From the NCBI GenBank assembly GCA_030605385.1, contig JAUWIL010000003.1, forward strand, positions 1-35,813: 35,813 nt of DNA, written 5' to 3'. Both the position numbers and the translations under genes were made by a program. This document shows positions 816 to 32,395 of the stretch, in pieces (position 1 is the stretch's first letter; every line of letters starts with the position of its first letter). This stretch comes from Methanobacteriota archaeon. Its GTDB lineage: Archaea; Halobacteriota; Syntropharchaeia; JAUWIL01. Below the pieces are notes generated by a model. That model ran no database searches. It was not told the DNA's origin and was given only the letters and a program-made list of their open reading frames with translations.

Positions 816-1052
816 TCAGCTCTTATTATCAACAGTCTCGAGCTTGAACATGGTATTGAGACCTTTAAGTGTGAGATGGACTTTATCGCTGAGATTCAGG
901 ATCGCCTCAACACTAACCTTTTTGCTGCCCCAGTTGTAAACAAAATCATAGTTCCCTTTCACAGTCTTAAAACCCAGGGATAGGAGTCGCGAGTTTACCT
1001 CGCTTGGTGCCGCACCATCGCTGTTAAACCATACAACAAGATACGTTTTCAC
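816..1052 (-). CDS. Small hypothetical protein (78 aa, GTG start)
   Basis: ORF MKTYLVVWFNSDGAAPSEVNSRLLSLGFKTVKGNYDFVYNWG...; purine-rich sequence upstream of GTG. Confidence 0.55.
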   Translation of the reverse strand: MKTYLVVWFNSDGAAPSEVNSRLLSLGFKTVKGNYDFVYNWGSKKVSVEAILNLSDKVHLTLKGLNTMFKLETVDNKS

Positions 1053-1110
1053 CTTACCACCTCATTACGCTCCATTACTTTCACCTTACCACCTCATTAC
1101 GCTCCATTAT
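1047..1110. repeat. 32-bp direct repeat, 2 copies, overlapping the start region of the 816-1052 ORF
   Basis: tttcaccttaccacctcattacgctccatta at 1047 and again at 1079. Confidence 0.9.
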
Positions 1111-1162
1111 GGATAGCCCCATTATGGATAGCCCCATTATGGATAGCCCCATTATGGATAGC
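1106..1162. repeat. 15-bp tandem repeat ATTATGGATAGCCCC, ~4 copies
   Basis: Direct reading of (attatggatagcccc)n. Confidence 0.9.
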
Positions 1163-8036: not shown

Positions 8037-8130
8037 CGGCACTTTATTAGCATTTAACAGAGGGCATTTGACAGGATCAATAAGATTAATTTGACAGGGC
8101 CATAAAATCAGGTTGAGTCAGGAAGCCATA

Positions 8131-8186
8131 CCCACACCTATACCCATACCTATGCCCACACCTATACCCATACCTATGCCCACACT
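8131..8186. repeat. 24-bp tandem repeat CCCACACCTATACCCATACCTATG, 2.3 copies
   Basis: Direct reading. Confidence 0.9.
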
Positions 8187-16750: not shown

Positions 16751-17067
16751 ATGTTTATGGAACTTTGTTCCATAACCGTATGGAGGTGGAGCTTCCATAC
16801 ATGTTTGCGGAACAAAGTTCCGCAACAGTCTAAAAGTTCCACTTTTAGACATGTTTGCAAAAACGTAGTTTTTGCAACCGTATAAAATCAGGAGATTTTA
16901 TACATGTTTACAGAGCAGGGCTCTGTAACCGTATGAAATGCTTTGCATTTCAGACATGTTTGAAAAACCTACGGTTTTTCAACCGTCTAAAACGCAAAGC
17001 GTTTTAGACATGTTTATGGAACGTAGTTCCATAACCGTATGAAAAGCGGAGCTTTTCAGACATGTTT
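16751..17067 (+). repeat. Hairpin array, family 1: six ~52-bp units, each two different stem-loops joined by ACATGTTT and AACCGT
   Basis: Stems incl. ATGGAAC/GTTCCAT, GCGGAAC/GTTCCGC, CTAAAAGT/ACTTTTAG, GCAAAAAC/GTTTTTGC, ATAAAATC/GATTTTAT, ACAGAGC/GCTCTGT, TGAAATGC/GCATTTCA, GAAAAACC/GGTTTTTC, CTAAAACGC/GCGTTTTAG, TGAAAAGC/GCTTTTCA. Confidence 0.95.
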
Positions 17068-18223: not shown

Positions 18224-18335
18224 GTGTTTGCAAAATCGAAGATTTTGCAACAGTATAAAAACCGAAGGTTTTCAGACATGTTTGTAGAACCACGTTCTAC
18301 AACCGTCTAAAACACGCAGTGTTTTAAACATGTTT
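18224..18335 (+). repeat. Hairpin array, family 1: two units (four stem-loops)
   Basis: GCAAAATC-gaa-GATTTTGC, AACAGT, TATAAAAACC-gaa-GGTTTTCA, ACATGTTT, GTAGAAC-cac-GTTCTAC, AACCGT, CTAAAACAC-gca-GTGTTTTA, ACATGTTT. Confidence 0.93.
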
Positions 18336-22285: not shown

Positions 22286-22403
22286 AGCAAAACACCATTA
22301 ATATGCGATAGCAGTATTGGCTGTAAGTACAGTATAGTTAATCCGATGCGTCATTTTATATAAGCGTTTCAATAGTCGCCTCCATATCCCGGCGTGAGCT
22401 TTC

Positions 22404-22540
22404 GTCAAGTCTTGCGAACCAAAAGTTCGCGGGACAACCAAATGCCATGCATTTGTTAAGTCTTGCGGAGCAAAGCTCCGCGGGACAGACGGACTACTGT
22501 CCGTCAAGTCTCGCAAAAACTTCGTTTTTGCAAGACTTCC
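22404..22540 (+). repeat. Hairpin array, family 2, directly upstream of mevalonate kinase
   Basis: AAGTCTT-GCGAAC/GTTCGC-GGGACA; CAAATGC-cat-GCATTTG; AAGTCTT-GCGGAGC-aaa-GCTCCGC-GGGACA; GACGGAC-tact-GTCCGTC; AAGTCTC-GCAAAAAC-ttc-GTTTTTGC-AAGAC. Confidence 0.93.
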
Positions 22541-22585: not shown

Positions 22586-23515
22586 ATGGGTAAAGGCAGT
22601 GGGTATGGAAAAGTAATACTGTTCAATGAACATTTCGTGGTGCATGGAATACCTGCCGTAGCTTCGGCAATCAGACTTGCGACAGATGCAATCGTCAAAC
22701 GGCTCGACAGCGGATCGGGCATAACCATCCACGATGAGCGCATGGGAACCGAAGGGTACTCCGAGGCAAAGCGCGAGCATCAAAGAGAGGCGTTGGAGCG
22801 CATGATGAGGATGATGGGTGTGAACACAAGCAAGATGGCTCTCGATGTGACTGGCGGCGGAGAACTTCCCACATTCAGCGGTATCGGCGCAAGTGCAGCC
22901 AACTGTGTGGCTGTGGCAAGGGGTGTATCCGATGAATTCGGGATGGGGCTGCCAGATGACCGCATAAACGAGATTGCGTATGAAGGAGAGCGCGCCTTTG
23001 CAGGCAACCCATCGGGCATTGATAATACCGCCGCAACCTATGGCGGGCTCGTTTGGTTCAAAAGAGGTGAACAGAACGTCATTGAGAGATTGAAAATCAA
23101 GCAGCCTGTGGAGATCGTGATGGGCAACACCGGCGTCGTTGCCAACACCAAGGAGGTGGTTGCAGGCGTCAGAGAGCGCAAGGAGAAGTATCCTGACAAA
23201 TACAGCAAAATCTTCAAAGAGGCTGAAGAGCTGGTGCACAGGGCAAGAAAGGCGCTCGAGGACTTTGATCTTGAAACTGTGGGCGAGTACATGAACCAGA
23301 ATCATGCACAGCTTCAGGCAATAGAAGTGTCGTCAGAAGTGCTGAACCGTCTTGTCGATATTGCAAGAGACCATGGTGCGCCCGGTGCAAAGATGACTGG
23401 GGGAGGGCGCGGCGGCTGCATGGTTGCACTGACTCCCGGAAAAGATCTGCAGGAAACGGTTGCGCAGGCAATGGAAAAAGAGGGTTTCGTGGCACTCAGA
23501 ACCACAATAGGCTGA
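22586..23515 (+). CDS. mvk: Mevalonate kinase
   Basis: GSGYGKVILFNEHFVVHGIPAVASAI ... LPTFSGIGASAANCVAVARG ... GAPGAKMTGGGRGGCMVAL (GHMP motifs). Confidence 0.92.
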   Translation: MGKGSGYGKVILFNEHFVVHGIPAVASAIRLATDAIVKRLDSGSGITIHDERMGTEGYSEAKREHQREALERMMRMMGVNTSKMALDVTGGGELPTFSGIGASAANCVAVARGVSDEFGMGLPDDRINEIAYEGERAFAGNPSGIDNTAATYGGLVWFKRGEQNVIERLKIKQPVEIVMGNTGVVANTKEVVAGVRERKEKYPDKYSKIFKEAEELVHRARKALEDFDLETVGEYMNQNHAQLQAIEVSSEVLNRLVDIARDHGAPGAKMTGGGRGGCMVALTPGKDLQETVAQAMEKEGFVALRTTIG

Positions 23516-24961: not shown

Positions 24962-25570
24962 TCATTCCTCTTGCTTGCTGCCTATCCACATAATAGGGGA
25001 TTTGCTGTAAACAGGTCTTCCTAAGCCGGTAACCTGACCTCTCCGCTCTTTGTGCTCATGGCACAGGGCGCAGAAGATCGGATTCGGGTTGAAGAGGTAG
25101 TGTCCGCTGTCAGTCTTCATCGGCTTTCCCATGTGCGCAGGGTTGTCCTTTTTGGATAACAGGTAAAATGAACATATTCCATCATGCTCATCGTAATGCG
25201 CGCAGGAGTCTTTCTTGGCGGATCCTATCTTGGATGCAGAATACTCTAGAATATTGATTGTGCCTTGAATATTGAGTGCGCCTTCAAGCGATTTTGCCCT
25301 GCCTTCAACCAGATCGGGCGCTTTTTTTTGTACGGTTTTCTTGCTGGATTTTGGACCGCGCTTTCGGCTGGACGTTTTGACAGTCTTTTTGCTTACATTT
25401 GCGGATGTGTCCTTGCAGTATCTTCTTACTGTTGGGATGCTGTAACCCGTGATGCTTGCTATCTCCTTGTAGCTTGTTCCTCCGGCTCTCAGTTCTCGCA
25501 TTCTTTTAATTTCCTTCTGTTTCAGCGCCAAATAAACACCCCGTGTCAAGCCATAGTTTTCTAAACGCAC
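24962..25570 (-). CDS. HTH (resolvase-like) plus Cys/His zinc-cluster DNA-binding protein
   Basis: MRELRAGGTSYKEIASITGYSIPTVRRYCK HTH; basic linker; SCAHYDEHDGIC and FCALCHEHKE clusters. Confidence 0.65.
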   Translation of the reverse strand: MRLENYGLTRGVYLALKQKEIKRMRELRAGGTSYKEIASITGYSIPTVRRYCKDTSANVSKKTVKTSSRKRGPKSSKKTVQKKAPDLVEGRAKSLEGALNIQGTINILEYSASKIGSAKKDSCAHYDEHDGICSFYLLSKKDNPAHMGKPMKTDSGHYLFNPNPIFCALCHEHKERRGQVTGLGRPVYSKSPIMWIGSKQEE

Positions 25571-25710
25571 CCAATATAAGCATCCAATATAATATTAGTT
25601 CTTTCCCAGCCTACGAGTCTACGCACCAATATAAATTAATTCTTTCCCCCACCCACATTACATTACCAGAGTCATCCTACGGAATCTATTTATTAAATGT
25701 TTATCTAAAT

Positions 25711-25740
25711 GACTGTGAGTGACTGTGAGTGACTGTGAGT
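25711..25740. repeat. 10-bp tandem repeat GACTGTGAGT x3
   Basis: Direct reading. Confidence 0.9.
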
Positions 25741-25920
25741 GAGCTTAATGTGCATTGAAGTTAAAGGGCTGCCCGAGACGTTTAACGGCAGAAGTTTAGC
25801 GGCAAACATGAAAAATATATGAAACAGTACGACGTTATTGATTGCGGCAGTATACGAACGCCCCAAACCAAAACAAGACAGGACTGCATGACTGGATTAT
25901 TTGACTGTCAAAACAGCGTT

Positions 25921-26010
25921 CACCAATAACCATTTCACCAATAGCCACCTCACCAATAGCCACCTCACCAATAGCCACCTCACCAATAGCCACCTCACCA
26001 ATAGCCACGC
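25921..26010. repeat. 15-bp tandem repeat CACCAATAGCCACCT, 6 copies, just upstream of the 26030 CDS
   Basis: Direct reading; four identical central copies. Confidence 0.95.
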
Positions 26011-32259: not shown

Positions 32260-32329
32260 TCGATGGGTTGTACAAAACCGCACAAAACCAATAAGTAGTA
32301 TAAGTCTAAAAATAAGTCTAAAACAGCAT

Positions 32330-32395
32330 AAGTCACTTATAACTGTAGTCTAAGTCACTTATAACTGTAGTCTAAAATAGTATAGGTCACTTATA
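32330..32395. repeat. 22-bp tandem repeat AAGTCACTTATAACTGTAGTCT x2 plus a diverged third copy
   Basis: Direct reading; ends ~30 bp before the ferritin-like start codon. Confidence 0.85.

Follow-up and report, generated by a model that had tools for sequence, protein, structure and literature searches.

The mevalonate kinase gene (mvk) in the window, as we call the whole 35,813-nucleotide stretch analyzed here, is preceded on the plus strand by a run of alternating hairpins of two kinds, A and B, at positions 22398–22538 (Table 1). The identity of mvk is well supported (TIGR00549, 245.6 bits; cut-off, 163). The run follows the grammar AAGTCTY-A-GGGACA-B: an orphan B arm is followed by two full A-B pairs, and an A hairpin closes the run. 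AAGTCT junctions occur at 22407, 22458, and 22506 (spacing of 51 and 48), and GGGACA junctions at 22431 and 22482. All the arm pairs named in the initial annotation were found, and, as proposed there, stem A can be extended by its junctions, with pairing through GTCTT/GGGAC that includes two G·T pairs. The last hairpin stops at 22538, which leaves 47 nt up to the ATG at 22586, close to the ~45 bp first given. The start had to be moved slightly upstream of 22404, as the orphan B arm begins at 22398; intact forms of this arm (GACGAAAGCnnnGCTTTCGTC) are present in other arrays, and a terminal form like A3 recurs at many loci. The plus-strand RNA fold of the array has a predicted energy of -74.3 kcal/mol, as compared with -38 ± 3.9 for shuffled sequences (z = -9.3; none of 200 shuffles did as well), and the minus strand also lies below its shuffles (z = -6.5). 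The mvk array is thus two family 2 units plus remnants; unit boundaries were placed from two insertion sites described below, that of an F2-type pair and that in a GNAT gene.

Table 1. Hairpin arrays and neighboring gene in the window.
Feature	Position	Strand	Basis
Family 1 array, about six P+Q double-hairpin units; start GATG^TTT, end ..GACATG^	16754–17064	+	sequence
Second family 1 array, four hairpins (two units); start GGTG^TTT, end AACATG^	18227–18332	+	sequence
Orphan 3' arm of truncated B hairpin (GCTTTCGTC, 22398–22406) plus AAG; decayed left edge of mvk array	22398–22409	+	sequence
Family 2 unit 1, TCTTGC-A1-GGGACA-B1-TTAAG (A1, 22414–22430; B1, 22439–22455)	22410–22460	+	sequence, fold; boundary inferred
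Family 2 unit 2, TCTTGC-A2-GGGACA-B2-AAG (A2, 22465–22481; B2, 22488–22505)	22461–22508	+	sequence, fold
Terminal A hairpin A3 (TCTCGCAAAAAC-TTC-GTTTTTGCAAGACTT; 22513–22531), symmetrical feet	22509–22538	+	sequence, fold
mvk, mevalonate kinase (context only, outside element)	22586–23515	+	TIGR00549; GHMP kinase Pfam domains

Two further arrays in the window follow a second sub-grammar of P and Q hairpins (family 1), as distinct from the A and B hairpins of family 2. In both families a unit of about 48–54 nt comprises one A (or P) and one B (or Q) hairpin joined by short conserved linkers, with hairpin centers spaced by 26 ± 2 nt and units by about 52 nt. The 5' arms are purine-rich (97% purines at positions four and five, counted from the loop) and lead into a C-NNN-G triloop. 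The loop is GNA or TNC in 46% of distinct hairpin types (12.5% by chance); GNA triloops closed by C-G are unusually stable in DNA. The junctions of the two families had been considered unrelated, but both contain GTCT/AGAC, some inner arm pentamers are common to the two, and the families are found fused inside single arrays. The fusions, the common triloop and arm grammar, and the two-hairpin units bear out the earlier suggestion that one mechanism generated both.

The arms vary and their pairing is preserved. Array hairpins have 88 distinct arms; all seven inner pairs are nevertheless intact in 148 of 166 middle hairpins, an unbiased set picked solely by the position of their neighbors, and in none of the shuffled controls. 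Among 13 distinct A hairpins, 13 cells were changed on both sides (4.3 in shuffles), while pairs altered on both sides numbered 3, which is not unusual (2.0 in shuffles). A CRISPR-like array was ruled out because the 'spacers' are palindromes drawn from a small vocabulary. Symmetric terminal inverted repeats were likewise abandoned as a description, the P+Q unit having asymmetric ends.

The arrays are spread throughout the genome (1.87 Mb in 168 contigs, 85% complete). The pattern AAGTCTYGC-N8..24-GCGGGACA has 25 exact matches genome-wide, as against none for the reversed control, so that family 2 does occur elsewhere, as the initial annotation had proposed to check; blastn gave 74 matches. 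In 523 kb of sampled sequence, about half of it selected from contigs already carrying matches, there are 114 arrays totaling 13.1 kb (2.5%). Array density is alike in a mostly arbitrary 175-kb subset made up of the window and contigs picked by number (20.0 vs. 20.2 per 100 kb), and scaling from the sample gives about 400 arrays in the whole genome. Per 100 kb, the first sample from this genome has 100 hairpins with arms of at least 8, and a 252-kb sample from relatives in the class has 15; C-G closes the triloop in 223 of 236 and 4 of 22 cases, respectively. The double-hairpin family was found in none of 57 other genomes of the class; among the genomes searched, the source species alone represents its order. 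A stricter form of the family 2 pattern (F2) had no matches in either genome_contigs or viral_contigs. Looser viral matches were not palindromic and were taken as chance.

Exact empty and filled insertion sites are supplied by copies of a further palindromic repeat (AAACCGACATTCCACCAGT..), although these pairs are few and all come from one genome. At site 1 (..GTG^GTTAGG), copy L229 has no insert and copy L099 has 108 nt (two units). At site 2 (CAGTTAGATG^CCACTGGTC), the insert is absent from L099, measures 54 nt (one P+Q unit) in L229, and reaches 108 nt in L090, where a single P+Q unit holds an F2-type pair within its Q loop. Both sites, and that of the F2-type pair in L090, are within hairpin loops. 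A dispersed, palindromic, hairpin-forming repeat that is a target of the double-hairpin units (AAACCGACATTCCACCAGTTCTATTGACTGGTGG...CCAGTGGTTCTTCACA) was observed at L245:5366–5455, L099, L229, L090, L230, and L240. At fixed TG sites, family 1 units are present or absent as whole double hairpins, with insert lengths that are multiples of 54 nt. Each begins right after (A/G/T)TG and has ACATG as its end, and TG precedes the first P hairpin in 24 of 27 clean family 1 array starts (background, 8%; p = 2e-23). Units flanked on the left by GTG keep the ACATG end just as those flanked by ATG do, and for this reason no target duplication is evident; direct repeats flanking the arrays were no longer than in shuffled pairs.

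Units also occur inside genes. A GNAT gene is interrupted by inserts of 51 and 102 nt, where homologues are contiguous at IQxV and GTW. The 51-nt insert is in frame and is bordered by a 6-bp repeat (CAGCAC), an exception to a strict rule of no duplication, while the 102-nt insert introduces a stop codon; a GCAT duplication considered for this gene was abandoned once homologues were compared. With two double-hairpin inserts and an upstream frameshift, the gene (L102:18442–18536 and alongside) appears to be either a pseudogene or a product of misassembly. A PfkB-like kinase gene (L092:16269–17280) carries an in-frame hairpin insertion of 57 nt, at a site that we take from knowledge of the family, rather than from a retrieved homologue, and that departs from the TG rule. 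The same gene has a TAG stop further on and is otherwise continuous in coding sequence. A coding constraint was rejected, as unit lengths show no preference for multiples of three or for frame.

We conclude that the arrays are stacks of non-autonomous mobile double-hairpin units of about 48–54 nt each, a reading to which we assign a probability of roughly 0.8. A unit would insert 3' of TG as a whole block, and its ATG end, which resembles a target, may let further units stack head to tail onto it and so build an array. As in IS200/IS605 and REP systems, transposition could proceed through a single-stranded intermediate, since two hairpins fill the element, loops serve as targets, and no duplication is seen; the closing C-NNN-G triloop together with insertion into hairpin loops points the same way. 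By analogy, single-strand transposition of the IS200/IS605 or REP type appears to be the best mechanistic fit. The arms would then drift yet stay paired if the DNA must fold into hairpins in order to move; alternatively, one arm might be copied from the other during replication. A more specific version of this reading is tentative and, in our judgment, rather doubtful: two triloop hairpins alone would form the whole element, which would enter TG sites and hairpin loops in single-stranded form, stack on the regenerated target, and keep its arms paired while drifting within a limited purine-rich vocabulary, the enzyme lying outside the known Y1, reverse transcriptase, and TnpB systems.

Copying of one arm onto the other could also be the entire explanation, with replication errors such as template switching making and keeping the hairpins and no transposition at all. 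The perfect pairing of most middle hairpins in spite of their many distinct arms and the C-NNN-G triloops would both fit, and a comparable maintenance model has been discussed for the mitochondria of Nematomorpha (PMC6649704). However, template switching alone cannot yield common linkers at hundreds of loci, inserts in exact multiples of 54 nt, or a fixed TG target, which makes it a very unlikely sole cause; it could maintain pairing alongside transposition. Somewhat less improbable, though still unlikely, is a true REP/BIME family mobilized by a RAYT (TnpA_REP) enzyme. In its favor, short palindromes occur by the hundred in mosaics, mostly between genes and in some cases within them, and Y1 transposases are present in 34 of 58 genomes of the class. 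Against this, the genome itself has no Y1_Tnp match, a GT[AG]G foot is found in just 5 of 507 hairpins, and the two hairpins of a unit differ from each other and share one orientation, unlike inverted REP pairs.

The initial annotation had implied instead a cis-acting RNA leader, or riboswitch-like element, that controls mvk from its 5' untranslated region. The nearness of the array to the ATG is in keeping with this, as is its better folding on the plus than on the minus strand, and the array could be transcribed with mvk from a TATA-like TTTATA at 22355, although the same stretch reads TTATAT on the opposite strand. Arrays of this family, however, occur in all gene contexts, including within genes. 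Their occurrence in codirectional, divergent, and convergent intergenic DNA is proportional to the available bases. There is no clear bias in orientation relative to genes (23 same, 13 opposite) or, from G·T and A·C mismatches (31 vs. 23), in strand. The closest named mvk relatives (L118–L120, 71% identical) have no array before mvk, and an Rfam scan of the window gave no matches. A leader function is thus highly unlikely. As judged from the sequence, the array is most likely an incidental insertion as far as mvk is concerned, and is probably neutral or mildly disturbing for the gene; the arrays look more like selfish mobile DNA than an mvk switch.

A mobilizing enzyme was sought in the genome, which is 85% complete. 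Y1_Tnp (PF01797) and the reverse transcriptase RVT_1 (PF00078) had no matches there while their controls matched, and the TnpB zinc-ribbon (PF07282) was not found there either; with these three not found in the genome, we do not claim membership in the IS200/IS605 or REP systems. The Y2 transposase of IS91-like elements (PF04986) also had no matches in the genome, but its control likewise matched nowhere. One serine recombinase gene (contig C54) has no array next to it, in a stretch of 3.4 kb. On this contig of G000 (L256, about 10.9 kb), the recombinase gene is followed by two reading frames in which HNH-like and recombinase C-terminal-like segments recur. An open reading frame in the window (24962–25570, minus strand) has weak matches, none reaching the cut-off, to TnsD, a resolvase helix-turn-helix, and IS21 transposase.

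Among known systems, the closest archaeal relatives in kind appear, by analogy, to be the PATEs (palindrome-associated transposable elements) of Haloquadratum. These are transposase-free relatives of IS605-type transposons with near-terminal palindromes and no target duplication, of which a terminal-only version is 52 bp, and mobile elements of Haloquadratum often insert into one another (PMC3119063). Like PATEs, the units described here are archaeal, lack a transposase gene, have palindromes near both ends (the two hairpins fill a 54-nt unit, too short for a transposase), and insert 3' of a short target (TG) without duplication, the 51-nt GNAT insert excepted. Unlike PATEs, they consist of only two hairpins, form long head-to-tail stacks, and are present in hundreds of copies with variable arms; moreover, no IS605-type transposase was found in the 85%-complete genome (no PF01797 or PF07282). 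In anatomy, the closest counterparts would be mitochondrial double-hairpin elements. Those of Allomyces, and similar hairpin-forming elements, are reported to be small and dispersed, with mobility inferred and no mention of a duplicated target (Paquin 2000, as cited in PMC2800124 and PMC4478555). Their mobile unit is of two hairpins, as in the 54- and 108-nt inserts here, whereas the cellular archaeal genome, the tandem arrays, and the strict grammar of purine arm and C-NNN-G triloop set the present units apart; sponge-type elements are reported to conserve stems and vary loops, the reverse of the archaeal arrays (PMC2800124, PMC4478555).

REP/BIME sequences with TnpA_REP are high-copy short palindromes in mosaics, mostly intergenic and some intragenic (PMC8266576, PMC3733652). 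Unlike these, the arrays have no conserved GTAG foot, no RAYT gene was found, and arm sequence is not conserved. CGTC-tagged REPs, with CGTC (or TGTC/CCTC) at one end and loops of 4–5 nt, are not matched either: P-to-Q linker tags vary (CCGTA, CCGTC, CCGTT, or CAGTN), and array hairpin loops are 3 nt. Rickettsia palindromic elements (RPE) sit in coding genes, and yeast mitochondrial GC clusters are small palindromic units that merge and shuffle (PMC6649704, PMC4478555). The arrays resemble the former in having palindromes inside coding genes and the latter in their merged and shuffled units, but differ from both in unit, target, and genome, and a sequence relation to either is not known. The absence of PF00078 matches in the 85%-complete genome speaks against a retroelement or group II intron derivative.

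The arrays are a real, unusual, genome-wide family of mobile double hairpins, a variant of an already known kind. About 2.5% of the sampled DNA is made up of two-hairpin units that are stacked and have exact insertion quanta. This makes the genome a natural test case for the spread of tiny non-autonomous DNA where no transposase is obvious, and for the question whether DNA mobility, instead of RNA function, can give rise to covarying hairpins. Strong intergenic RNA-like covariation and large folding z-scores need not imply a regulatory RNA. Many short tandem repeats of differing sequence were also observed in intergenic parts of the window (1047–1162, 8128–8185, 25710–25742, 25920–26008, and 32329–32375; 35 tandem repeat finder rows).
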